Source of the DNA: Selenomonas sp. oral taxon 920
GTDB lineage: Bacteria; Bacillota; Negativicutes; Selenomonadales; Selenomonadaceae
Assembly (NCBI RefSeq): GCF_001717585.1
Contig: NZ_CP017042.1
Coordinates: 124,001-188,000, forward strand
DNA: 64,000 nt
Direction: 5' to 3'
Below, piece after piece: positions 50,847 through 64,000 of the stretch (its first letter is position 1; each line of letters begins with the position of its first letter). Under the pieces are notes generated by a model. The model did no database searches and was not told the DNA's origin. It saw only the letters and a program-made list of their open reading frames with translations. Made by a program: the position numbers and the translations under genes.

Positions 50847-52604
50847 TCACCGCATCTCCCGCAGTACATCTGCCGCGATCTGAGGCGCGGTGAGGTGATA
50901 CGTGCGTGCAAGCTCATCGGGTTTGTAACGGTTGAAGAACTGTTTCGGCAGCCCGTAGTTCATGACGCGTACGCCTCCCTTCTCTCCATAGAAGGACGAC
51001 ACCTTCTGACCAAAACCGCCCTCTACAATCCCGTCCTCGAGGGTGAGGATGAGGCTGTGGTTCTTGGCGAGGGAGTTGAGCAGCGCCGTGTCCAGTCCCG
51101 AGAGGTAGAGAGGGTTCACGACGGTCGCGCGGATTCCCTTGCGTGCGAGTTCGTCTGCCGCCTCGGATGCGAGTACGGCGAAGTTGCCGACGCCGATGAG
51201 AAGGACGTCCGCCCCCTCGCGCACAACGATGGACTTGTTCAGATCGCCGTAGTCCGTACGTACGGGATAGGGGTTTTCTGTGCAGCCTGAGAAGGGCATG
51301 CGAATCATGACAGGGTGCTCGGTTTGCTCCACCGCCCACCGCAGGACGGCGATGTGCTCCTCCACGCTCGTCGGCGCAAGGTAGACGAGATTCGGGATGT
51401 TTGAGAAGATTGAGATATCGTAGAAGCCGAGGTGCGTCACGTCGGTCGAGCGGTAGAGCGACGTGCCCGTTGCGAGAAAGACGGCGGGGCTGCGGTTGAC
51501 ACAGACATCCTGCGCCATCTGGTCATAGGTGCGCTGAAAGAAGCTGCTGTACGTGCCGAAGATCGGCCGCGCACCGCCGCGCGCCAGTCCCGATGCCATC
51601 GCGACGGCGTGTTCCTCGGCGATGCCTACGTCGACGTACTGCCTGCCGAGCGCGGTACGGTCGGCAGGCGAGAGGTTGATGCCGCCGACAATGCCCGCCG
51701 AGAGATAGACGAAGTTCGGATTCTTCCGCGCGGTTTCGAGCACAAAGTCAACCGTTGCGGCAGCATACGGATCGGGTACAGTGGCCTTCTTGGCGATGCC
51801 GCTCTCGATATGAAAGGGGGCGTGACGGTGCCAGCCCTCAGGATCGTCCTCGGCGAAGGAGAGCCCCTTTCCCTTGTGCGTGACGATATGAACGACAACG
51901 GGCTTTGTCGTATCCTTGACCTCGGAGAACGCGGCGATCAGTGCCTCCGTGTCATTGCCGTCTGCGACGTAGCGGTAGGAGAGACCCATTGCGCGAAAGA
52001 GATTGTCGGGGGCTGTCCCGCCCGTCTCGCGCAGCTCTCTGAATTTACGGTACATCCCGCCGTGGTTCTCGGAGATGGACTGGTCGTTGTCGTTGAACAC
52101 GATGATAAAGTTCGTCCCAAGCTCGCCGACGGTATTCAGCCCCTCGAGTGCCTCGCCGCCCGACATGGAGCCGTCGCCGATCAGGGCGACGATATTTTCT
52201 GAGCCGCCCGCAAGATCGCGTGCCTTCGCAAGTCCGGAGGCGAGGCTGATCGCGGTCGATGTGTGCCCGATGTTGAAGATGTCGTGTGTGCTTTCGTCTG
52301 TATTTGTAAAGCCGGAGACATCGCTGTACTGCGCCTCGTCTATGTACGCATGGGCGCGTCCTGTGAGCATTTTGTGCGGGTAGCACTGGTGGGACACATC
52401 GAAGACGATCTTGTCGCGCGGGGAATCAAAGACCGTGTGGAGTGCGATGGTCGCCTCGATGATGCCGAGGTTCGGACCGATGTGCCCGCCGATACAGCTC
52501 GTGCGCCGGATGAGCGCATCGCGCATCTCGCGGGCGAGGGCGCGGCGCTGCTCCGCCGTGTAGCCTCGCATGTCCGCAGGTTCGTGGATCGTTTCAAGAT
52601 ACAA
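50847..52604 (-). CDS. 1-Deoxy-D-xylulose-5-phosphate synthase-like protein (copy 1)
   Basis: 585 residues, about 40 shorter than standard DXS. It has the DXS order: GGHIGPNLGIIEATIALH, DVSHQCYPHKMLTGR (standard DXS has VGHQAYPHK), thiamine-diphosphate motif GDGSMSGGEALEGLN to NDNDQSI, and the catalytic Glu in VGIAEEHAVAMASGLA. The changed residues suggest a paralogous group whose reaction may differ. It starts at a TTG (52604), chosen because GGAGGG lies eight bases upstream. An extended -10 (TGTTATAAT) is further up. Confidence 0.85.
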   Translation of the reverse strand: MYLETIHEPADMRGYTAEQRRALAREMRDALIRRTSCIGGHIGPNLGIIEATIALHTVFDSPRDKIVFDVSHQCYPHKMLTGRAHAYIDEAQYSDVSGFTNTDESTHDIFNIGHTSTAISLASGLAKARDLAGGSENIVALIGDGSMSGGEALEGLNTVGELGTNFIIVFNDNDQSISENHGGMYRKFRELRETGGTAPDNLFRAMGLSYRYVADGNDTEALIAAFSEVKDTTKPVVVHIVTHKGKGLSFAEDDPEGWHRHAPFHIESGIAKKATVPDPYAAATVDFVLETARKNPNFVYLSAGIVGGINLSPADRTALGRQYVDVGIAEEHAVAMASGLARGGARPIFGTYSSFFQRTYDQMAQDVCVNRSPAVFLATGTSLYRSTDVTHLGFYDISIFSNIPNLVYLAPTSVEEHIAVLRWAVEQTEHPVMIRMPFSGCTENPYPVRTDYGDLNKSIVVREGADVLLIGVGNFAVLASEAADELARKGIRATVVNPLYLSGLDTALLNSLAKNHSLILTLEDGIVEGGFGQKVSSFYGEKGGVRVMNYGLPKQFFNRYKPDELARTYHLTAPQIAADVLREMR

Positions 52605-52711
52605 GGGGAAAGCCCTCCATTGACATATGATAATACTCGGGTCTCATTATAACATAAATTCTAACAAAACGCCGATAAAATTCAAAACGTTCCGCACATA
52701 GGCAGACAAAA

Positions 52712-52736
52712 ACCTCGGAGCGCGTGGCTCCGAGGT
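52712..52736 (-). terminator. Terminator of the quinone reductase gene
   Basis: ACCTCGGAG paired with CTCCGAGGT, followed on the minus strand by TTTTTG. Confidence 0.85.
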
Positions 52737-52752
52737 CTGTGAAACAGCGAAA

Positions 52753-53304
52753 CTACATCAGGGAGGCAATCTTTTCCGCGAGGCGTTTTGCATGCGCGTG
52801 CGACACGGCTGTCATATCGGCGGCGCGCGCGGGATCGGTGCGGTCGGCGTAGGAGACACCGCCCGTGTAGACATAGCCCTCGTAGATCATGCCCGTGAGC
52901 CCTGCCGTCTGAACAAAGCGTCCCGTCAGCGCATCCACGGGGAATGCCGCGTCATATGCGCTCTCAGGTGCGCCCGTGGTAAAGGACAGCACGAGTTTCT
53001 TGCCCACGAGTGCCTTGCCCTGCGAGCCGTGCGAGAAGCCGCGCACGAAGACATCCTCCATCCACTTTGCGAGCAGTGCCGGCATGCTGTACCAGAAGAT
53101 CGGGAACTGCAGAACGATGATGTCCGCATTCCGGAGTTTGTCCTGCTCCGCCGGAACGTCGATGCGGTAGTCCGGATAGAGCGCACTGAGGTCGTCGATG
53201 ACGGCGCTTGGCAGCTGCTTCGCCAGATCGGCGAGGATGATCTTGTTCGCGAATGAGTCGCTTGCGAGGTCGGGATGTCCTGAGACGATGAGAACGTTTT
53301 TCAT
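52753..53304 (-). CDS. NAD(P)H-quinone oxidoreductase, flavodoxin fold
   Basis: 183 residues of the KefF/MdaB type. VLIVSGHPDLASDSFANK at the N-terminus binds the flavin phosphate, IVLQFPIFWYSMPALLAKW is the conserved family core, and LSFTTGAPESAY follows. It would reduce quinones or other acceptors by two electrons. It begins three bases after the stop of DXS-like copy 2, so it is cotranscribed with it. AAAGGA precedes the ATG. Confidence 0.88.
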   Translation of the reverse strand: MKNVLIVSGHPDLASDSFANKIILADLAKQLPSAVIDDLSALYPDYRIDVPAEQDKLRNADIIVLQFPIFWYSMPALLAKWMEDVFVRGFSHGSQGKALVGKKLVLSFTTGAPESAYDAAFPVDALTGRFVQTAGLTGMIYEGYVYTGGVSYADRTDPARAADMTAVSHAHAKRLAEKIASLM

Positions 53305-53307
53305 AGA

Positions 53308-55065
53308 TTATCCTTTCAATGCAAAGAGCGTATCCGCTGCGATCTGTTCGGCAGTGAGGTGATACTCCCGTGCGAGTTCGGATGCACTGTAGCGGTCGTG
53401 GAACTCCTTTGAGAGCCCGCAGCAGCGTACCCGGATATGTGCGTTCATGCCGTAGTACGCGGCGATCTTCTGCCCGAAGCCGCCGTCGAGGATGCCGTCC
53501 TCGAGTGTGAGGATGAGGCGGTGCTTTTCCTTGAGACGGTCAAGGAGGATGGTGTCGAGACCCGAGAGAAAGATCGGATTGACGACGGTCGCGTGAATGC
53601 CCTCCGCCTCGAGCTGTACGGCGGCAGCGCTTGCAAGAGCTGCAAAATTGCCGGCCCCGATCAGTGCGACCTCCGCGCCCTCCTGTACGACCTGATACTT
53701 GTTGAGGTCGCTGTAGTCTGTGCGCACGGCATAGGGGCTCTCCTCATACCCGCCGACCGGCATGCGGATCATAACGGGATGCGCCGTCTGCGTGACCGAC
53801 CAGCGCAGTACCTCCTTGTACTCGTCGAGGCTCGCGGGTGCGAGGAAGACGAGGTTCGGGATGTTCGCAAAGATGGGGATGTCGAAGAAGCCGAGGTGCG
53901 TCACATCGTTCATATAGTAGAGCGACGCGCCGACGGAGAGGAAGACAGCGGGGCTGTTGTTGATCGCGACATCCTGCGCCATCTGATCGTAGACGCGCTG
54001 AAAGAATGTGCTGTACGTGCCGAAGATCGGGCGTGCGCCGCCGCGTGCGAGCCCAGATGCCATTGCGACCGCGTGCTCCTCGGCGATGCCCACATCGACA
54101 TAGTGACTGCCGAGCTCCGCGCGATCCTTGGGTGAGAGTCCGATGCCGCCCATCGTGCCGGCCGCGAGAAAGACGAAGTTCGGATTCGTCTTTGCCTGCT
54201 CTTTGAGGAAGTCCTTGGTCGCCTCCTGATACGGGTCGGTGTACGGATGCTTCAGCGCACCCGTCTCAATGTCGAATGCGGACCGATAGTGCCACGTCTC
54301 TGGGTCTTCCTCGGCGAACTTGTAACCCTTGCCCTTCTGCGTTACGATGTGGACGACAACGGGCTTCGCCGTATCCTTGACCTCAGAGAATGCCGCGATC
54401 AGTGCCTCGCAGTCGTTGCCGTCTGCGACGCAGCGGTAGTCGAGGCCCATCGCGCGGAAGAGGTTGTCGCCCTCCTTGCCGCCGCTCTCGCGCAGCTCTT
54501 TGAACGCGCGATACATCCCACCGTGGTTCTCCGCAATCGATCGATCGTTGTCGTTGAACACGATGATGAAGTTCGTGCCCATCTCGCCGACGACGTTCAG
54601 TCCCTCGAGCGCCTCACCGCCCGAGAGGGAGCCGTCGCCGATGAGCGCAATGATATTCTCCCTGCGTCCCGCGAGGTCGCGTGCCTTGGCGAGTCCCGAG
54701 GCAAGGCTGATCGAGGTGGACGTGTGCCCGACGTTGAAGAAGTCGTGCGGGCTCTCCTCTGGATTCGTGTAGCCCGACACCTCGCCGTATTTGTCCTCGT
54801 CGATGTATGCCTCCACGCGCCCCGTCAGCATCTTGTGCGGGTAGCACTGGTGCGACACATCGTAGACGATCTTGTCCGTGGGCGAGTCAAAGACCGTATG
54901 CAGCGCGATGATCGTCTCGACGATGCCGAAGTCCGGGCCGAAGTGCCCGCCGTGAACGCTCGCGCGTTTGAGGAGTGCGCCGCGCATCTCCTCGGCGAGC
55001 GCCTTGCGCTCCGCTGCGCCGTACCCCTTGATATCGGCGGGTGATGTGATTTTTTCCAGATACAT
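53308..55065 (-). CDS. 1-Deoxy-D-xylulose-5-phosphate synthase-like protein (copy 2)
   Basis: 585 residues, exactly the length of copy 1 and alike throughout: GGHFGPDFGIVETIIALH, DVSHQCYPHKMLTGR, GDGSLSGGEALEGLN, NDNDRSIAENHGGMY, VGIAEEHAVAMASGLA. It shares the VSHQCY variant. Tandem duplication followed by divergence is likely. The ATG at 55065 has AAAGGGGG upstream. First gene of the operon 55065-52753. Confidence 0.86.
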   Translation of the reverse strand: MYLEKITSPADIKGYGAAERKALAEEMRGALLKRASVHGGHFGPDFGIVETIIALHTVFDSPTDKIVYDVSHQCYPHKMLTGRVEAYIDEDKYGEVSGYTNPEESPHDFFNVGHTSTSISLASGLAKARDLAGRRENIIALIGDGSLSGGEALEGLNVVGEMGTNFIIVFNDNDRSIAENHGGMYRAFKELRESGGKEGDNLFRAMGLDYRCVADGNDCEALIAAFSEVKDTAKPVVVHIVTQKGKGYKFAEEDPETWHYRSAFDIETGALKHPYTDPYQEATKDFLKEQAKTNPNFVFLAAGTMGGIGLSPKDRAELGSHYVDVGIAEEHAVAMASGLARGGARPIFGTYSTFFQRVYDQMAQDVAINNSPAVFLSVGASLYYMNDVTHLGFFDIPIFANIPNLVFLAPASLDEYKEVLRWSVTQTAHPVMIRMPVGGYEESPYAVRTDYSDLNKYQVVQEGAEVALIGAGNFAALASAAAVQLEAEGIHATVVNPIFLSGLDTILLDRLKEKHRLILTLEDGILDGGFGQKIAAYYGMNAHIRVRCCGLSKEFHDRYSASELAREYHLTAEQIAADTLFALKG

Positions 55066-55107
55066 AGAGATCCCCCTTTGCCGTATGCTTTCCATTTCCC
55101 TAAGCGA

Positions 55108-55225: not shown

Positions 55226-55789
55226 ATGAAGGAATGCAAGATGAAGGACAGCCGCATCGTCATCAGTGAGGTCATGATGCCGAGTCAGGCGAACCCGAAC
55301 GGGAACGTGCACGGCGGCGAGATTATGAAGCTGATGGACTCAGCGGCGTACGCGGCGGCGCGGCGCTATGCGCGCTCGAACGTCGTCACAGCGCGCGTGG
55401 ACGAGCTCGAGTTCCACCTGCCGATCCGCATCGGCGACCTTGTCGTTGTGACGGCAGACATTGTCTATGTCGGACACAGCTCGATGGAGGTCGCCGTCAA
55501 CGTCATCGTCGAGGATCTGGACGACGGCGGCGATCCGCAGCTCGGCCTCTCGGCGTACTTCACCATGGTCGCGCTGGACCGCAACGCACGGCCGAAGTCC
55601 GTGCCGCCGCTCACGCTCAATACCGAGGAGGCACGCGCCGCGTTCGAGGAGGGCAAACGCCGCTACGAGGCGCACAAGGCACGCAAGCGCGGTACCGTTA
55701 CGCCCACGGGCGGCTGCGTCTGTGATGCCATTGCGCAGCAGACAAAGGCGGCGCACACTGCACATACGGCAAAAGAAGTGAAGAAGTAG
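55226..55789 (+). CDS. Acyl-CoA thioesterase, hotdog fold
   Basis: 187 residues of the YciA/BFIT group. NPNGNVHGGEIMKLMDSAA is the active-site helix (catalytic Asp in the MDSAA turn), followed by VTARVDELEFHLPIRIGDLV and VYVGHSSMEVAVNV. It hydrolyses acyl-CoA in the cytoplasm. The last 40 residues are basic and carry a CVC motif, beyond the usual domain. GGGGGA precedes the ATG. Confidence 0.9.
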   Translation: MKECKMKDSRIVISEVMMPSQANPNGNVHGGEIMKLMDSAAYAAARRYARSNVVTARVDELEFHLPIRIGDLVVVTADIVYVGHSSMEVAVNVIVEDLDDGGDPQLGLSAYFTMVALDRNARPKSVPPLTLNTEEARAAFEEGKRRYEAHKARKRGTVTPTGGCVCDAIAQQTKAAHTAHTAKEVKK

Positions 55790-55830
55790 AAGCGTTCCTT
55801 GAAATAAGGGGGTGTTTATGCTACAATAAG

Positions 55831-56035
55831 TGCAAGACATGAACAGCAATGTGCGGAACAACGAAGGGATTCCCTATGGGGATCGTCGGCGTGCAATCGT
55901 GTCTTGCAAAAGATGCCAACAGCAATTTACCTGTCTCTTAAACAGCAGCGGGGTTCGACGACCCCGCAGGACGGGGCGGCGCGTCGCTTCCGTCCGCGGC
56001 ATCTTGTCCGTATATGTTCGCGGCTTGCCGCGGTG
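55831..56035 (+). ncRNA. Structured leader, possible Y-RNA-like RNA (predicted)
   Basis: Promoter TTGAAA (55799-55804), 17 bases, TACAAT (55822-55827). The RNA start pairs with a downstream segment in a 12-base stem with one G-U pair (55831-55842 with 55897-55908). Inside is the hairpin GATTCCC-TAT-GGGGATC (55868-55884). Next comes a T-arm-like hairpin, GCGGGG/CCCCGC around TTCGACGA (55948-55967), then CGCGG-CTTG-CCGCG (56019-56032). A closed terminal stem plus tRNA-like arms is typical of bacterial Y RNAs, and the next gene is Ro60-like. Short frames in it lack ribosome binding sites. Confidence 0.45.
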
Positions 56036-56092
56036 AATGAATTTGTCCGACACAGTGCATCTGGGTCGGGCATTTTGCGCGAAGGAGGGAGA

Positions 56093-57568
56093 ATGATGCT
56101 GGACGCGCTGAAAGAGGAGAGCAACCGAACCTATACGCGGACGGAGAACGATGCCGCGACGTATGCAAGCTCCGGTTCAGACACACTTGACTTCTTTGCG
56201 GCGGCAGGCGCGCTCCGGGAGGCAGGCGAGGCAGAGATCATCGTGCGCTTCACGCGCGCCTTTGCCGAGCATCCGACTTATGCGCTGCGCACACTCTTCT
56301 ACGCGCGTGACGTGCGCGGGGGACTCGGCGAGCGGCGGCTCTTTCGCTTGCTGCTGCGCCATCTCGCCTTCGCTGCGCCCGCATCTCTCGAAAAGAATCT
56401 GAAATTCGTTCCGGGATACGGTCGCTGGGACGATCTGCTCGTCCTCCTCGATACGCCATTGGAGGCTGCCGCTGTTCGCCTCATTCGCGCGCAGCTTGAA
56501 AAAGACCTGCGTGCCGCATGGGAGGAAAAGCCGGTCTCCCTCCTCGCGAAGTGGCTGCCGTCCGTCAATACCTCCTCGCGTGCGGCGCGTGCACAGGCGC
56601 GGCGGCTCGCGGTCCTGTTCGGGATGAGGGAGGCGGACTACCGCAGGATGCTTGTCCGTCTGCGCCGCCGCATTGCACTCATCGAGAATGCCCTGCGCAC
56701 GAGGGACTATACCTTTGACTACGCAAAGCAGCCGTCGAAGGCGATGTTCAAGTACCGCGCGGCGTTCTGGCGCAACGACGTGGAGCGGTACAAGGCGTTT
56801 CTGTCACGCGTGGAGCATGGTGAGGAGCATCTGCATACGGGAACGCTCTATCCCTATGAGATCATCCGTCCGCTCAGTGCAGCAGTGACACCGCAAATCT
56901 CGAAAGAGGAGGCGCGTACCCTTGATGTCACATGGAGTGCACTGTCCGACTATACGCATGGAGAGAATGCGCTCGTCGTGCTCGACGGCTCCGGCTCGAT
57001 GTACTGGGGCGGGAACCCCCTGCCGAGCAGCGTCGCGCTCTCGCTTGCCATCTACTTCGCCGAGCGCAATACGGGCGCGTTTCATGGGCACTTTATCACA
57101 TTTTCCCAGAACCCGCGGCTTGTCGAGATCAAGGGCGCGACGATTGTGGAGCGTGTGCACTACTGCAAAAGCTTTAACGAGGTGGCAAACACAAACCTCG
57201 AAGCTGTGTTCCGTCTCCTCCTGCGCGCAGCGGTGAAGAACCGTGTGCCGCAGGAGGAACTGCCCTCCGTGCTCTACATCATCACGGACATGGAGTTCGA
57301 TGCCTGTACCGTAGACGCGGACGTGACGAATTTTGAGCGGGCAAAGGAACTGTTCGCGGAGGCGGGCTATGCGCTGCCGCGCATCGTGTTTTGGAACGTC
57401 CAGAGCCGCAGCCGTCAACAGCCCGTCACGATGAACGAGCAGGGCGTCATGCTCGTCTCTGGCTGCAGTCCGAGCATCTTCTCTATGGTCGTCGATGGGC
57501 GCATTACCCCGTACGAGTACATGAAGCAGGTGCTGTGCGGTGAACGGTATGCGGTGATTGAGGCATAG
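56093..57568 (+). CDS. DUF2828 protein (TROVE-like helical repeats plus von Willebrand A domain)
   Basis: 491 residues. The first 270 are helical repeats (NLKFVPGYGRWDDLLVLL, VSLLAKWLPSVNTSS, AKQPSKAMFKYRAAFWRND). The C-terminal part is a vWA domain with an intact metal site (LDGSGSM, residues 297-303, NTN, and ITDMEFD) and the DUF2828 ending YALPRIVFWNVQ. The same order of domains is found in Ro60/Rsr, which binds Y RNAs and misfolded RNAs in RNA quality control. AAGGAGG lies before two ATG codons (56093 and 56096). It is preceded by a long structured leader. Confidence 0.85.
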   Translation: MMLDALKEESNRTYTRTENDAATYASSGSDTLDFFAAAGALREAGEAEIIVRFTRAFAEHPTYALRTLFYARDVRGGLGERRLFRLLLRHLAFAAPASLEKNLKFVPGYGRWDDLLVLLDTPLEAAAVRLIRAQLEKDLRAAWEEKPVSLLAKWLPSVNTSSRAARAQARRLAVLFGMREADYRRMLVRLRRRIALIENALRTRDYTFDYAKQPSKAMFKYRAAFWRNDVERYKAFLSRVEHGEEHLHTGTLYPYEIIRPLSAAVTPQISKEEARTLDVTWSALSDYTHGENALVVLDGSGSMYWGGNPLPSSVALSLAIYFAERNTGAFHGHFITFSQNPRLVEIKGATIVERVHYCKSFNEVANTNLEAVFRLLLRAAVKNRVPQEELPSVLYIITDMEFDACTVDADVTNFERAKELFAEAGYALPRIVFWNVQSRSRQQPVTMNEQGVMLVSGCSPSIFSMVVDGRITPYEYMKQVLCGERYAVIEA

Positions 57569-59294: not shown

Positions 59295-60116
59295 TTAGTA
59301 TTTTCCACCGCCGCCGCCGTGATCGCTGTCACTGCTGGAGGTGGTGATGTGAGAACCGGAGGACGAGGTTCTTTTCTCGTATTTTGCCCGCCGGGATTCT
59401 GAGGTGCGGATGTAGATGTCTTTGCTGTAGGTGAGATGGACACTGCTGTATGAGAGGTAGTCATCTGCCCCGGCAGCATCCCCGGTGGTCTCCATTCCCT
59501 CCTCGAGGTGAGAGGAGATGGCGTGGTGGACGACCGCTGCGAGGAGAAGAGCCGTGCCGAGAATCCCGACGATCGCCCACGGATCGAGGGGGATGTAGGG
59601 TTTGCCCTTCCTTTCGTAGTAGGTCAGCATCTCGTCCACGGTGACGGCAAATGCGGTGTATGCCTTGCCGTATTCATTGTCCTTGAGCTCGGGAACGAAG
59701 TTGTCTGCGAGGTGCTCGATGCCGTACTCATCGGTGATGCGCTGGCGCATCTTGTTGTCGGTGGAGATGTAGAAGTTGCGGTCTTTCGGCGTGAGGAGGA
59801 AGACGATCGTGCCGTTTGCACCGCCGTCCGCGATGCGGTCGACGACCGCATTGGCGATCTCGCCGAGCACCTGTCCGTGCGTGTCCTTGATGTTGCCGAC
59901 GAGGATGCGCACGCCGTGTGCTTTCTCAAACGCGGCGATCCTGGCATCGAGTTCCTGCTCCTCGGCATCGGTGAGGAGATCCGCCTCGTCGATCACGCGT
60001 GCGTTTCCGATGTCAGAGGCATCCGCCGCCCTTGGTACGGTGAGGATGAAAAGGCTGAGGCAGAGGAGGAGCAGGACGAGAATGGGGCTGTATCGTGATT
60101 TTTTTTCGATTGTCAT
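59295..60116 (-). CDS. TPM-domain membrane protein (copy 1)
   Basis: 273 residues. Signal or anchor segment (about 10-30, LVLLLLCLSLFILTV), TPM domain (ARVIDEADLLTDAEEQELDA to EMLTYYERKGKPY, about 40-180), a membrane helix (WAIVGILGTALLLAAVVHHA), then a cytoplasmic or stalk part ending SSSDSDHGGGGGKY. TPM domains occur in photosystem II repair proteins and membrane-bound putative phosphatases. The Ser-rich, Gly5-Lys-aromatic tail is shared by all three TPM genes here. GGAGG precedes the ATG. Confidence 0.87.
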   Translation of the reverse strand: MTIEKKSRYSPILVLLLLCLSLFILTVPRAADASDIGNARVIDEADLLTDAEEQELDARIAAFEKAHGVRILVGNIKDTHGQVLGEIANAVVDRIADGGANGTIVFLLTPKDRNFYISTDNKMRQRITDEYGIEHLADNFVPELKDNEYGKAYTAFAVTVDEMLTYYERKGKPYIPLDPWAIVGILGTALLLAAVVHHAISSHLEEGMETTGDAAGADDYLSYSSVHLTYSKDIYIRTSESRRAKYEKRTSSSGSHITTSSSDSDHGGGGGKY

Positions 60117-60128
60117 GTGCCGCACCTC

Positions 60129-61247
60129 CTACCAGTCCAAGATCAGCCAGCCGATGTAGCAGGTGATGAGAAAGACGAGGACGGCGGGCACGAGGGGGTA
60201 ATAGCGTTCCTTGAACTCGTCCCGCGGCAGCGAGGAGCTGACGACTTTGCCGGTCTGTCCGTTCATCATGAAGGTGTAGGGCTTGCCTTTGTAATTCGTG
60301 GTGAGGATCCAGACGGGCAGCATCGCATAGCGGACATTCCCCTCTTCCTTGCGGATCAGCGGCGCGCCCTCGGGGGTGACGTTGCTGTAGTCTTTGACGC
60401 TGGTGGAGAGCACCCAGGAGGCACTCGCGGCGAGACGGCTGTCCGCACGCGGCAGGGATTCCTTCACGTCGACATCGTACTTGTCCGCGAGATGCCCTGT
60501 GAAATATGCGGCGGAGAAGGGAACGAGCTCCTTGTAGTCGAACGGCTCGATGCTGTCCATGAAGGAATCGTCCATGCGCTTGCTGGCATCGACGGGGATT
60601 CCGTCGAATGTCATCTCGCCGCTGCGCTCGCAGCGGTAGTGGGATGTTTCGGTGACGGTCTCATTCGTTGTTTCGCGGGTGCTCCTGCGCTCCGCATTGA
60701 AATTTGCATCGACGCTCACATGTGCGTCGAACAGCCAGAAGGGGACGTACATGGACTGGATTTCTTTGACGCGGTTTTCGTCGCGGAATTCCTTCGGGAG
60801 CAGACGCTTTCCCTTGTAGAACTCCGTGAGTGCGGCGATTGCCTCCTCCTTCGTCTTCTTGAATGGAATGACGAAGTCGGGGCGCAGCATGCCGTCGAAG
60901 CGGCGCGGGATCATGTTCGGGCTGCCGCAGTAGGCGCACTCGGTCGCCATGGTGTTGCCGTCAGAGACGAGCTCTGCACCGCAGGAGGAGCAGGTCTGGA
61001 TCATCATGTGTGCCGTTTCGGCATCATCCCATGTGCTGCGTTCTCTCTCGGTGTTCCACTGCGCCTCTTTTTTCTCGGCCGCATCCACTGCCTTTTCCTG
61101 CTTCTGCGCAAAGAGGGCATCCATCTCTGCGATGCTGATCTTGGCATCGCAGAATTCGCAGGTGACGTGGCTCCGTCCGGGGAGGAAGGTGAGCGGCGCA
61201 CCGCATTTGGGGCATTTGCAGCTGACGCTTGTATCGGGCATAGGCAT
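60129..61247 (-). CDS. Zinc-ribbon membrane protein (copy 1)
   Basis: 372 residues. Two zinc ribbons at the N-terminus (CKCPKCG with CEFCD; CSSCGAEL with CAYCGSPN), a central soluble domain (MYVPFWLFDAHVSVD, SYRCERSG-like SHYRCERSGEM) and a C-terminal membrane helix (LVPAVLVFLITCYIGWLILD). Homologues are annotated as TFIIB-type zinc ribbon proteins of unknown function. It follows the TPM gene 61250-62566 by two bases, and the pair repeats upstream. Confidence 0.85.
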   Translation of the reverse strand: MPMPDTSVSCKCPKCGAPLTFLPGRSHVTCEFCDAKISIAEMDALFAQKQEKAVDAAEKKEAQWNTERERSTWDDAETAHMMIQTCSSCGAELVSDGNTMATECAYCGSPNMIPRRFDGMLRPDFVIPFKKTKEEAIAALTEFYKGKRLLPKEFRDENRVKEIQSMYVPFWLFDAHVSVDANFNAERRSTRETTNETVTETSHYRCERSGEMTFDGIPVDASKRMDDSFMDSIEPFDYKELVPFSAAYFTGHLADKYDVDVKESLPRADSRLAASASWVLSTSVKDYSNVTPEGAPLIRKEEGNVRYAMLPVWILTTNYKGKPYTFMMNGQTGKVVSSSLPRDEFKERYYPLVPAVLVFLITCYIGWLILDW

Positions 61248-61249
61248 CT

Positions 61250-62566
61250 CTAGTACTTCCCGCCGCCGCCGCCGTGGCTTTCGTCGCGGCTGGAGGTGGA
61301 GATATAGGAACCCGAGGAGGACGAGGAGGAGGATGTCTCCTTGTGCTTCGTCTCACGGGACTCTGTGGTGCGGAGGAAGACGTCCTCTCGGTGTGTGAGG
61401 CGGAAGCTGCCGCGCTCGACGTAGTCGTCTGCCTCGTGGGCACTTCGGACACTGAACATGCTGTCCGAGAGATTGGCAAGGATGAACCAGTAAACGATGG
61501 CAGCAGGGATCAGCGCACCGACGAGGGTGACGATGGTGAGCAGGAAGGCATCGGGATTGAATGGTTTGCCTTCCTTCTCGTAGTAGGTCACCATCTCATC
61601 CACGGCGGCGGCAAATGCGGTGAATCCCTCGGCGTATTTGTTCTCCTTCAGGGAGGGGACGAACTTGTCGGCGAGGTGTTCGATGCCTCTGTCGTCGGTG
61701 ATGCGCACGCGCATCTTGTTGTCAGTGGAGATGTAGAAGTCGCGCTCCTTCGGTGCGAGGAGGAGGACGATGGTGCCGTTTGCGCCGCCGTCCGCGATGC
61801 GGTCGACAACGGCATTGGCGACCTTGCCAAGCACCTGTTTGTGTGTGTTTTTGACCGTGCCGATGAGGATGCGAATGCCGTGCGCCTGTTCATATGCGGC
61901 GAGCTTCGCGTCGAGTGCCTGCTCCTCGGCATCGGTGATGAGGTCGGACTCGTCGATCACGCGCAAAGCACCCAGTCCCGCATCCCCTGTCTGTGTCCCC
62001 CCAGCTGCGACTGCACGTGCAACGGCACTGAGTGCGCCGCCCGTGGTGAAGGGCTTGCCTTCCTTCTCGTAGTAGGTGAGCATTTCGCCCGCGACTTGAC
62101 CAAATGCCGTGAACATATCGGCGTATTTCTTGCTCTCGAAGGCGGGCAGGAATTTCTCCGTGAGGTGCTCAATGCCCTCGTCGGTAATGCGCGTGGCGAG
62201 CCTTGTATCCGTGGCGACGTAGTAGGTGTTGTTTTCGGGCGAAAGGAGGAGCAGGACTGCGCCGCGTTCACCGCCGGGGGCGATGGTCTTGATGATGTTC
62301 TCCGCGAGCGGCTTCAGCGGTTTGTCTTTCCAATCACCGACGATTGCCGCGAGGATGCGGATGCGGTGTGTCCGTTCCACTGCCGCGAGCTGCGCATCGA
62401 GTTTTTGCACCTCGGCATCGGAGAGGAGGTTCATCTCGTCGATGACGCGTGCGTTTCCGATGCCCGCTGCATCTGCCGCTTTGGGGACGGCGAGGACAAA
62501 GATGCTGAGGCAGAGGAGGAGCACGGCGAGGAGTGTGCTGCGTCCATATTTCATTTCGTTTATCAT
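61250..62566 (-). CDS. Tandem TPM-domain membrane protein (copy 2)
   Basis: 438 residues with a signal or anchor segment and two TPM domains in series: the first opens NARVIDEMNLLSDAEVQKL, the second LRVIDESDLITDAEEQALDA. The second is the closer match to copy 1. A membrane helix (LLTIVTLVGALIPAAIVYWF) and the same tail (SSSSGSYIS..., GGGGGKY) follow. The extra domain probably arose by internal duplication. GGGGGGG precedes the ATG at 62566. Confidence 0.87.
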   Translation of the reverse strand: MINEMKYGRSTLLAVLLLCLSIFVLAVPKAADAAGIGNARVIDEMNLLSDAEVQKLDAQLAAVERTHRIRILAAIVGDWKDKPLKPLAENIIKTIAPGGERGAVLLLLSPENNTYYVATDTRLATRITDEGIEHLTEKFLPAFESKKYADMFTAFGQVAGEMLTYYEKEGKPFTTGGALSAVARAVAAGGTQTGDAGLGALRVIDESDLITDAEEQALDAKLAAYEQAHGIRILIGTVKNTHKQVLGKVANAVVDRIADGGANGTIVLLLAPKERDFYISTDNKMRVRITDDRGIEHLADKFVPSLKENKYAEGFTAFAAAVDEMVTYYEKEGKPFNPDAFLLTIVTLVGALIPAAIVYWFILANLSDSMFSVRSAHEADDYVERGSFRLTHREDVFLRTTESRETKHKETSSSSSSSGSYISTSSRDESHGGGGGKY

Positions 62567-62579
62567 TATGCCGCCCCCC

Positions 62580-63692
62580 CTATAGATCAAACATGAGCCA
62601 GCCGAGCCAGAAGAGGACGGCGAAGACGAGGGCGGACGGGATGAGCGGGTAGACGTACTCCTTGAATGTATCCTTGGGGAGATCCGCACCGACGAATTTG
62701 CCGGTCTGTCCGTTCATCATGAAGGTGTAGGGCTTGCCCTGATAGTTCGTGGTGAGGATCCAGACGGGCATCATGGCGTAGCAGACATCGCCCGACTGCT
62801 TTCGGATCTTCGAGCTGCCGCTCGGGGCGGTGCAGGTATAGCCGCTGACGGTTTTGCTCAGCGCGTGGATGACGCTCGCCGTGAGGCGCGTGTCGGCGCG
62901 CGGCAGGGATTCCTTGACATCGACATCGAATTTGTCGGCGAGGTGTCCCGTGAAATACGCAGCGGAGAAGGGGCGGAGGTCGCTGTAGTCGAACGGCTCG
63001 ATGCTGTCCATGTACTTGTCGTCCATGCGTTTGCTCGCGTCGACGGGGATGCCGCGGAACGTCATCTCGCCGCTGCGCTCGCAGCGGTAGTGGCTGGTCT
63101 CGATGATGATCTCGTCCGCCGTATCGCGCCGACTCCTCGTTTCCGCGCTGAAGTCCATGCTGGCGCTTACCTGCGCGTCGAAGAGCCAGAAGGGGACGTA
63201 CATGGACTGGATCTCCTTGATGCGGTTCTCGTCGCGGAACGCCTTCGGGAGCAGTTTTTTCCCCTTGTAGAACTCCTTGAGCGCAGCGACGGCGTCTTCC
63301 TTCGTCTTCTTGAATGGAATGACATAGTCGGGGCGCAGCATGCCGTCGAAGCGGCGCGGGATCATGTTCGGGCTGCCGCAGTAGGCGCACTGGGTCGCCA
63401 TGGTGTTGCCGTCGGAGACGAGCTCCGCACCGCAGGAGGAGCAGGTCTGGATCATCATGTTCGCCGTTTCGGCTCCGTCCCATGCGCTGCCTGCGTTCTC
63501 GGTGTTCCACTGCGCTTCTTTTTCCTCCGCCTTCTCTGCCGTCTGCGCCTCTTTCTGTGCATAGAGGGCATCCATCTCGGCAATGCTGATCTTGGCATCG
63601 CAAAACGCGCAGGTCACATGATTGTGCCCCGGGAGGAAGGTGAGCGGGGCACCGCATTTGGGACATTTGTAGCTGACGCTTGTATCTGCCAT
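62580..63692 (-). CDS. Zinc-ribbon membrane protein (copy 2)
   Basis: 370 residues, colinear with the product at 60129-61247: KCPKCGAPLTFLPGHNHVTC, CSSCGAELVSDGNTMA, MYVPFWLFDAQVSAS, SRRDTADEIIIETSHYRCER and a C-terminal helix (LVFAVLFWLGWLMFD). The N-terminal ribbons are almost identical between copies, the middle less so. It starts 11 bases after the stop of the third TPM gene. Confidence 0.85.
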   Translation of the reverse strand: MADTSVSYKCPKCGAPLTFLPGHNHVTCAFCDAKISIAEMDALYAQKEAQTAEKAEEKEAQWNTENAGSAWDGAETANMMIQTCSSCGAELVSDGNTMATQCAYCGSPNMIPRRFDGMLRPDYVIPFKKTKEDAVAALKEFYKGKKLLPKAFRDENRIKEIQSMYVPFWLFDAQVSASMDFSAETRSRRDTADEIIIETSHYRCERSGEMTFRGIPVDASKRMDDKYMDSIEPFDYSDLRPFSAAYFTGHLADKFDVDVKESLPRADTRLTASVIHALSKTVSGYTCTAPSGSSKIRKQSGDVCYAMMPVWILTTNYQGKPYTFMMNGQTGKFVGADLPKDTFKEYVYPLIPSALVFAVLFWLGWLMFDL

Positions 63693-63703
63693 AGGGTTGC
63701 ATC

Positions 63704-64000
63704 CTAAAACTTTCCGCCGCCGCCGCCGTGGCTCGAGTCGCTGCTGGAGGTGCTGACATTGGAGCCAGAGGAGGATTCCTTCTTTTCCTTGGTCCGACGT
63801 GTGACGGTGGTATAGAGGAAGTTGTCCTCGTCCTGCGTGAGCCGGAAGCTGTCGTGGTTCAGGTAGGCATCCGCCTCGGCGGCGGACCTGACGTTGCTCT
63901 CATACTCGTACAGCACATAGTAGATGGTGCCGCCGAGGATGAGCGCACACGCGAGAGCGATGCCGAGTGCCATGAGGTTAAAGGCATTGGCGGGATCGTA
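63704..64000 (-). CDS. TPM-domain membrane protein (copy 3, partial)
   Basis: The visible 98 residues are the C-terminal part: a membrane helix (ALGIALACALILGGTIYYVL), a segment EADAYLNHDSFRLTQDEDNF like those of copies 1 and 2, and the tail SSSDSSHGGGGGKF. The TPM domain itself lies beyond the window. It begins the third repeat of the TPM/zinc-ribbon unit. Confidence 0.8.
   Translation of the reverse strand, partial: YDPANAFNLMALGIALACALILGGTIYYVLYEYESNVRSAAEADAYLNHDSFRLTQDEDNFLYTTVTRRTKEKKESSSGSNVSTSSSDSSHGGGGGKF

Follow-up and report, generated by a model that had tools for sequence, protein, structure and literature searches.

The closest described systems are those in which Ro60/Rsr proteins (TROVE in Pfam) are partnered by Y RNAs, including YrlA (RF02553), which are small RNAs that adjoin the protein gene, have their ends paired in a terminal stem and carry tRNA-like arms. 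In YrlA, the resemblance to tRNA lets TruB- or TrmA-like enzymes recognise the RNA. DUF2828/DUF7788 proteins, also present in plants and fungi, form a large family of unknown function, for which an RNA partner would provide a testable function. One report describes an rsr-yrlBA-rtcBA operon (PMC7790460). Here we analysed 64,000 nucleotides (nt) of Selenomonas sp. oral taxon 920 (NZ_CP017042.1, positions 124,001 to 188,000 of the forward strand; hereafter the window, numbered from its first letter), in which two small RNA units stand 5' of a DUF2828/DUF7788 gene, a place where a first-pass annotation had suggested a possible Y RNA encoded as the leader of a Ro60-like gene. The RNA family to which these units belong is almost certainly real and linked to the DUF2828 protein. 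On balance, we favour the view that this widespread family partners DUF2828 proteins in Y-RNA-like ribonucleoproteins (RNPs) that would handle damaged or faulty tRNA.

The window protein compares well with Ro60 in its predicted structure. In Pfam it is matched by DUF7788 (1.6e-41) and DUF2828 (5.9e-29), with no match to TROVE up to E 1, and TROVE was not found in the host genome; a profile search of PDB sequences returned no Ro60 up to E 1. An AlphaFold2 model built on a 60-sequence alignment reached a mean predicted local distance difference test score (pLDDT) of 89.5, and all 13 Foldseek matches with E < 0.001 were Ro60/TROVE. Among the matches listed in a VIA-align fold search, which end at Z 10.9, Ro60 (1yvr) was found at Z 24.1 with a root-mean-square deviation of 4.0 over 415 aligned residues spanning 11-471, against Z 12 for vWA-only matches. 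It is predicted to adopt a full-length Ro60 fold, with a helical-repeat ring and a vWA domain in the Ro60 arrangement, in keeping with the shared plan that the first-pass annotation had proposed. The residues of the metal-ion-dependent adhesion site (MIDAS, DxSxS...T...D), namely D298, S300, S302, T367 and D399, are invariant in the 60 sequences. The protein P0001 matches PHROG 850 ('RNA-binding protein') at 7e-133, and relatives were found by tblastn in 664 phage records.

The earlier reading depended on the RNA staying beside orthologous genes, and this was borne out. Counts of bacterial and viral loci refer to the closest relatives, namely the best 80 of at least 521 bacterial relatives, obtained through a protein profile search of genome contigs, and the best 80 of at least 589 viral relatives in IMG/VR, some of them near-identical to each other. 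A covariance model (R1), trained on 75 units of which 72 came from the 160 loci later counted, gave 244 matches in 79 of the 80 bacterial loci and 210 in 68 of the 80 viral loci (26 of these 210 downstream of the gene), with every match on the gene's strand when both strands were searched; the sole bacterial locus without a match, L101, has just 48 nt of upstream sequence. By using a scan for the motif ACAGCAA plus a stem, units were found in 69 of 79 bacterial upstream regions, compared with 0/80 gene interiors, 1/78 downstream regions and 1/395 shuffles, and in 47 of 79 viral upstream regions, compared with 3/80 genes, 6/79 downstream regions and 1/395 shuffles. Arrays in relatives hold up to nine units. 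Ten whole phage and plasmid records gave 31 R1 matches in nine of them, all within about 3.1 kb of the gene except W07 26332 and W06 102089 (3.9 kb away).

The link also holds among whole genomes. DUF7788 was found in 26 of 380 Negativicutes genomes, and 25 were counted after setting aside G294, because the reading frame behind its match (under the cut-off, E 8.7e-4) looks by eye like an unrelated helix-turn-helix protein. R1 at E 0.01 matched 18 of the 380 genomes, 17 of which also carry the protein (Fisher p 1.4e-22); with G294 included, the table would be 17/1/9/353. A match in G150 (L240) was read as chance because, by eye, it spans a coding region. Eight protein carriers were missed by the genome-wide search, of which five (G192, G358, G364, G369 and G372) have units by local search and two, G013 and G248, are truncated where their contigs stop. 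According to record titles, many of them of metagenome-assembled genomes, the spread covers Bacillota, Synergistota, Planctomycetes, Desulfovibrionaceae and phages of many hosts. Across the window and 37 related loci, no Rfam family except tRNA lay on the units above chance. The RNA family is large and tandemly arrayed in bacteria and phages, and apparently undescribed; no RNA partner of DUF2828 was found in the literature searched, where subscription papers are thinly covered, making this weak evidence of absence.

A typical unit has a covarying terminal stem of about 7-8 base pairs (bp) whose 5' strand is followed, on the inner side, by ACAGCAA; the interior varies. Covariation, by which the first-pass annotation had proposed to judge the stem, is strong. 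In the unbiased test, every one of the 335 distinct ACAGCAA sites in upstream stretches of 1200 nt at 120 loci was taken with no structure required. At 244 of them (73%), the 7-nt strand before the motif meets its exact Watson-Crick complement 25-140 nt further downstream, whereas strands swapped in from other units fit in 295 of 15871 trials (1.9%). When G-U pairs were allowed, the figures were 268/335 for own strands and 2637/15873 for swapped ones. All seven stem pairs vary on both sides in alignment A3, where the 100% pairing arises by construction because the units were chosen as already pairing; the unbiased test of covariation is the comparison of own with swapped strands, not A3, and the rows showing the family motif were chosen by ACAGCAA. 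An A stands opposite a G just outside the stem in 188 of 268 cases. The ends of the stem would be the ends of the RNA, ACAGCAA is supposed to be a protein-recognition element, and direct binding of the units by the DUF2828 protein appears likely.

It is in the interiors that the resemblance to tRNA resides, and they mimic tRNA arms far beyond chance. The 333 distinct units contain 260 hairpins of 5 bp with 7-nt loops against 67 in shuffles, while hairpins with other loop sizes are at most 1.9-fold over shuffles. Of the 333 units, 85 have an anticodon-arm-like hairpin (YTNNNRN, with T loops left out), where 100 shuffles gave 4.8 on average and 11 at most; an A at position 34 is seen in 5 of these 85 against 29% in shuffles, which fits real bacterial anticodons. 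To compare with genuine loops, a reference of 309 distinct intact tRNA sequences (113 loops) was used, with a fully paired acceptor stem and away from ACAGC. A 5-bp hairpin loop identical to the anticodon loop of such a tRNA is present in 54 of the 333 units (shuffle mean 0.7, maximum 3, 200 shuffles), and a looser tally of 63/333 could include tRNA calls inside unlisted units. With the tRNAs of the own genome as sole reference (30 loops), 37 units still match, against 0.18 and a maximum of 2.

T arms (TTCRANN loop, 5-bp stem) were detected in 59 of the 333 units against 0.35 in shuffles. This abundance, and the T-loop-like character of YrlA, would suit an explanation in which the units, acting as Y-like structural RNAs, bait tRNA-modifying enzymes or sequester RNA-processing factors, their tRNA-like shape being read by TruB- or TrmA-like enzymes as in YrlA, with no repair of damage involved. 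We regard it as distinctly unlikely, since anticodon-arm-like hairpins are at least as common as T arms (85 vs 59), with many genuine loops among them, and since half of the bacterial loci have RtcB beside the gene on the same strand.

Some units go further than a single arm. Both arms stand together in 23 units, against at most 1 in shuffles. Units of 88-100 nt are often nearly whole tRNA bodies, with the terminal stem largely in place of the acceptor stem and a T arm in 26 of 55, and the Rfam tRNA model scored above its cut-off inside units at 7 of the 8 loci searched. ARAGORN called 25 tRNAs inside 24 units, for instance at L051 2789-2862, L077 2893-2967, L082 2885-2958, L087 2691-2763 and L111 2244-2309, among others. 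Such 'tRNAs' in public annotation may instead be these DUF2828-linked RNAs. That some units still pass tRNA models, and that many viral copies lie among tRNA genes, could also be explained if the interiors were functionless leftovers of tRNA genes that had moved into a repeat array. This we hold to be very improbable: the majority of units show covariation in their stems, real anticodons are retained in the loops and A34 is avoided, most arm-bearing units have one arm and not both, and among sister genomes the hairpin of unit 2 persists with one or the other of two genuine anticodon loops.

The way in which the arrays are transcribed bears on a further explanation, according to which the RNA is a cis-acting leader that controls DUF2828 expression, the protein binding the last unit and blocking its own translation, or tRNA-binding factors competing for the tRNA mimic. 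Near-consensus -10-like boxes lie 8-12 nt before the first unit in 31 cases among 85 bacterial stretches, against 4 in 123 at the same distances before later units, and this placement implies that the 5' end of the first RNA is probably that of its stem, and that the others, without promoters of their own, share its transcript; cutting into units would follow. From last unit to gene, the bacterial loci show a median of 39 nt (at most 40 nt in 40 of 76), and the strict terminator pattern was found in 0 of these 76 gaps, so that gene and units probably form one transcript, a point in favour of a cis leader. Yet in L016 and its relatives a terminator-like hairpin is visible by eye between array and gene, phages Zakai, EC6 and S-CoN_Ph8 carry units downstream of the gene, a position also taken by 26 of the 210 viral matches, and units lie 1.3-1.8 kb upstream in a Subdoligranulum plasmid and up to 3 kb upstream in Bacillus phage vB_BcoS-136 (L213). 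A single switch, moreover, needs no multi-unit array of differing interiors. Control in cis as the whole explanation therefore seems unlikely to us, although autoregulation could coexist with action in trans. In vB_BcoS-136 the units are interleaved with annotated tRNA genes, suggesting processing shared with tRNAs. For the same reason of position, the word 'leader' used by the first-pass annotation describes the window, where the units are 5' of the gene, and is too narrow for phages, because there units can be 3' of the gene or among tRNA genes.

Within the window itself (Table 1), much of what had been read from the letters stands. The separate promoter then proposed recurs 5' of the intact close orthologues L004-L006 and of a broken copy in G035 (L015); such an element occurs once in the region against 0.6 expected from shuffling. 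Judging by the -10 box, transcription should start near 55834, giving a leader of about 259 nt to the ATG, close to the 260 bases first estimated. Over 267 nt, the leader has a better fold than its shuffled versions (z -2.5; 3/200 shuffles equally good), and the 12-base stem said to close its 5' domain is present, with strands TGCAAGACATGA/TCGTGTCTTGCA. R1 matched unit 1 at 55833-55906 (22.7 bits, E 0.098) and unit 2 over its full extent (27.6 bits, E 0.006), both E-values for the whole genome, and at E 1 over the whole host genome it found no other place. Where one RNA had been envisaged as the leader of the gene there are hence two, and up to nine in relatives.

The hairpin with TTCGA was correctly seen, but the second unit around it was overlooked. 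L004 retains its T-arm resemblance and L005 has it in altered form, but it is lost from L006 and L015, where another hairpin stands in its place, and the T arm was rejected as a conserved feature. The anticodon-arm-like hairpin of unit 2 is present in the window copy and in all four of these relatives; its loop is CTCTTAA in the window and L005 and CTGTAAA, the loop of the host genome's tRNA-Tyr, in L004, L006 and L015. The same layout was observed in L004-L006, L015, L007-L009 and L011, the more distant of which differ in their stem sequences; two further families of the class show it too. A coding leader was considered and rejected: a frame is open into unit 2 in the window, but not in L004 or L006 (open frames 491 and 492 amino acids). 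The G035 orthologue (L010, L014 and L015; G035:C1:652680-654572) is in three pieces with a run of N, being broken, misassembled or masked.

Table 1. Features of the DUF2828/DUF7788 locus, in window coordinates.
Feature	Position	Strand	Basis or remark
Sigma-70-type promoter TTGAAA-17-TACAAT, TG before -10	55799..55827	+	also in L004-L006 and L015
Unit 1: 12-bp terminal stem (55831-55842 / 55897-55908) around variable interior	55831..55908	+	fold, R1 match
ACAGCAA of unit 1, directly inside 5' strand	55843..55849	+	family motif
Unit 2: terminal stem AAGATGC (55910-55916) / GCATCTT (55999-56005), hairpin-rich interior	55909..56006	+	R1 match
ACAGCAA of unit 2	55919..55925	+	motif position
Anticodon-arm-like hairpin CTGT-CTCTTAA-ACAG, 4 bp, in unit 2	55931..55945	+	loop as in host tRNA-Lys(CUU)
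T-arm-like hairpin GCGGGG-TTCGACGA-CCCCGC, 8-nt loop with TTCGA, inside unit 2	55948..55967	+	sequence
DUF2828/DUF7788 protein gene, 491 amino acids, predicted Ro60 fold, complete MIDAS	56093..57568	+	Pfam, AlphaFold2, alignment

Elsewhere in the window, by eye, two paralogous 1-deoxyxylulose-5-phosphate synthase/transketolase-like genes (585 and 595 amino acids) with an NAD(P)H dehydrogenase-like gene between them occupy 50847-55095 on the reverse strand. A tandem duplicated block at 59295-63973, also on the reverse strand, has zinc-ribbon-like proteins alternating with proteins that end in GGGGGKY/KF (TPM-domain-like by eye).

The neighbours of the gene were counted by tblastn on the 80 bacterial loci, because conserved neighbour clusters included antisense reading frames. 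Of the 80, 40 have RtcB on the same strand and 7 have RlaP, and upstream regulators of two kinds were found in 48 and 51, respectively. On representatives, Pfam confirmed RtcB, RlaP and WYL, with WCX (L123) just under its cut-off; two of the four regulator representatives match (WYL/WCX-type), and none was matched for those from L053 and L089. In a Listeria phage, a tRNA-splicing ligase is annotated 1.3 kb downstream of the DUF2828 gene. In 20 viral loci, 125 of 128 Rfam matches were tRNA, distributed over 14 of the 20, some of these matches being the units themselves.

Taken as partners of DUF2828 proteins, the units would act in the following manner. Array transcripts would be cut into single units, the protein would grip the stem and ACAGCAA, and the tRNA arm thus displayed would recruit or occupy enzymes that act on tRNA, such as nucleases and modification or repair enzymes, so that the RNP would act on damaged or faulty tRNA as Ro60-Y RNA complexes do. 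A putative role in tRNA damage or quality control is, in our judgement, somewhat more likely than not. A more specific possibility, which we put forward as doubtful, is that the arrays are tRNA decoys against anticodon nucleases or other tRNA-attacking toxins met by the cell or the phage. Each unit would then present a piece of one particular tRNA, be it the anticodon loop, the T arm, the D arm or the entire body, on a shared handle that the Ro60-like ring would grip, the set of baits would be matched to the toxins and reshuffled as these change, and RtcB and RlaP would reseal the tRNAs that had been cut. If true, this would be a modular, RNA-displayed defence in bacteria, or counter-defence in phages, against tRNA cleavage, for which we know of no described counterpart.

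Several observations weigh against the reading of the units as DUF2828 partners in tRNA handling. RtcB was not found in the host genome, and an RtcB probe had no match in the flanks of the 80 viral loci, so the RNA-repair link is not universal; in the window genome, the RNA pair and the protein would have to act without RtcB. By strict patterns, 212 of the 333 units have neither an anticodon- nor a T-arm-like hairpin, and so it is with unit 1 of the window. No unit was found by R1 in 12 of the 80 viral loci, in the whole record of Vibrio phage D481, or in about 300 nt at the locus of one Negativicutes genome with the protein, G022. In a draw of 309 genomes from the phylum, five of them with the protein, R1 gave no match at E 0.001; the model is weak for distant members. 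Among these five carriers, G528 and G554 had three units each, G000 gave an R1 match of E 0.006, and G671 had a broken gene without units; G469 has variant units, ACAGCCA or CCAGCCA (L283 256-411), upstream of one of its two DUF2828 paralogues, and no unit was found at the second (L285).

Compared with Rtc RNA-repair operons (RtcB, RtcA, RtcR), the DUF2828 loci share RtcB and RlaP at the frequencies given above, and this RNA-repair neighbourhood resembles the rsr-yrlBA-rtcBA operon (PMC7790460). They differ in that the recurrent upstream regulators are of WYL/WCX type, and in the window genome no RtcB was found. Phage proteins annotated as 'Ro-like RNA binding protein' (PHROG 850) belong to the same protein family as the window protein, but no RNA partner is annotated within 2.5 kb on either side of the gene in 8 phage records, 7 of which have units. 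Skipping-rope RNA (RF02924) is also a small RNA with a terminal stem and occurs in the same viral tRNA arrays at 2 of 20 loci (L202 7126-7209 and L151 6185-6281, with no overlap with units). It lacks ACAGCAA, and membership of the units in that family was rejected, as the conserved sequence differs and no R1 match overlaps.

With respect to Ro60/Rsr and Y RNAs, the likeness extends to the Ro60 fold predicted over the whole protein and to a T-loop-like sequence, as in YrlA beside TROVE genes; the difference is that the window protein, and the gene adjoining the RNA, is DUF2828/DUF7788 in Pfam and not TROVE. The YrlA model had no match up to E 10 in 55700-56200 and none to E 5 in nine related DUF2828 loci, and at the DUF2828 locus L086 it gave one chance-level match (E 1.1) across two tRNA genes. 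At nine TROVE loci from the same phylum it matched 7 (E 1e-5 to 0.035, all below the curated cut-off), whereas R1 matched 0 of the nine up to E 0.5 and the simple stem scan gave two weak candidates there. This pattern of matches sets the DUF2828 RNAs apart as a sequence family of their own, accompanying a likewise distinct protein family and marked by ACAGCAA and by arrays of up to nine dissimilar units. The Y RNA reading of the first-pass annotation is thus retained for the terminal stem and the tRNA-like arms seen in the RNA family, and set aside as regards membership in YrlA by the Rfam model. From the layout of the arrays, specific tRNAs and cleavage sites can be predicted. Judged on sequence, the DUF2828 RNAs are Y-RNA-like in plan and distinct in both RNA and protein family, which suggests a second, much more modular form of Ro-type RNP with tRNA-mimic RNAs.
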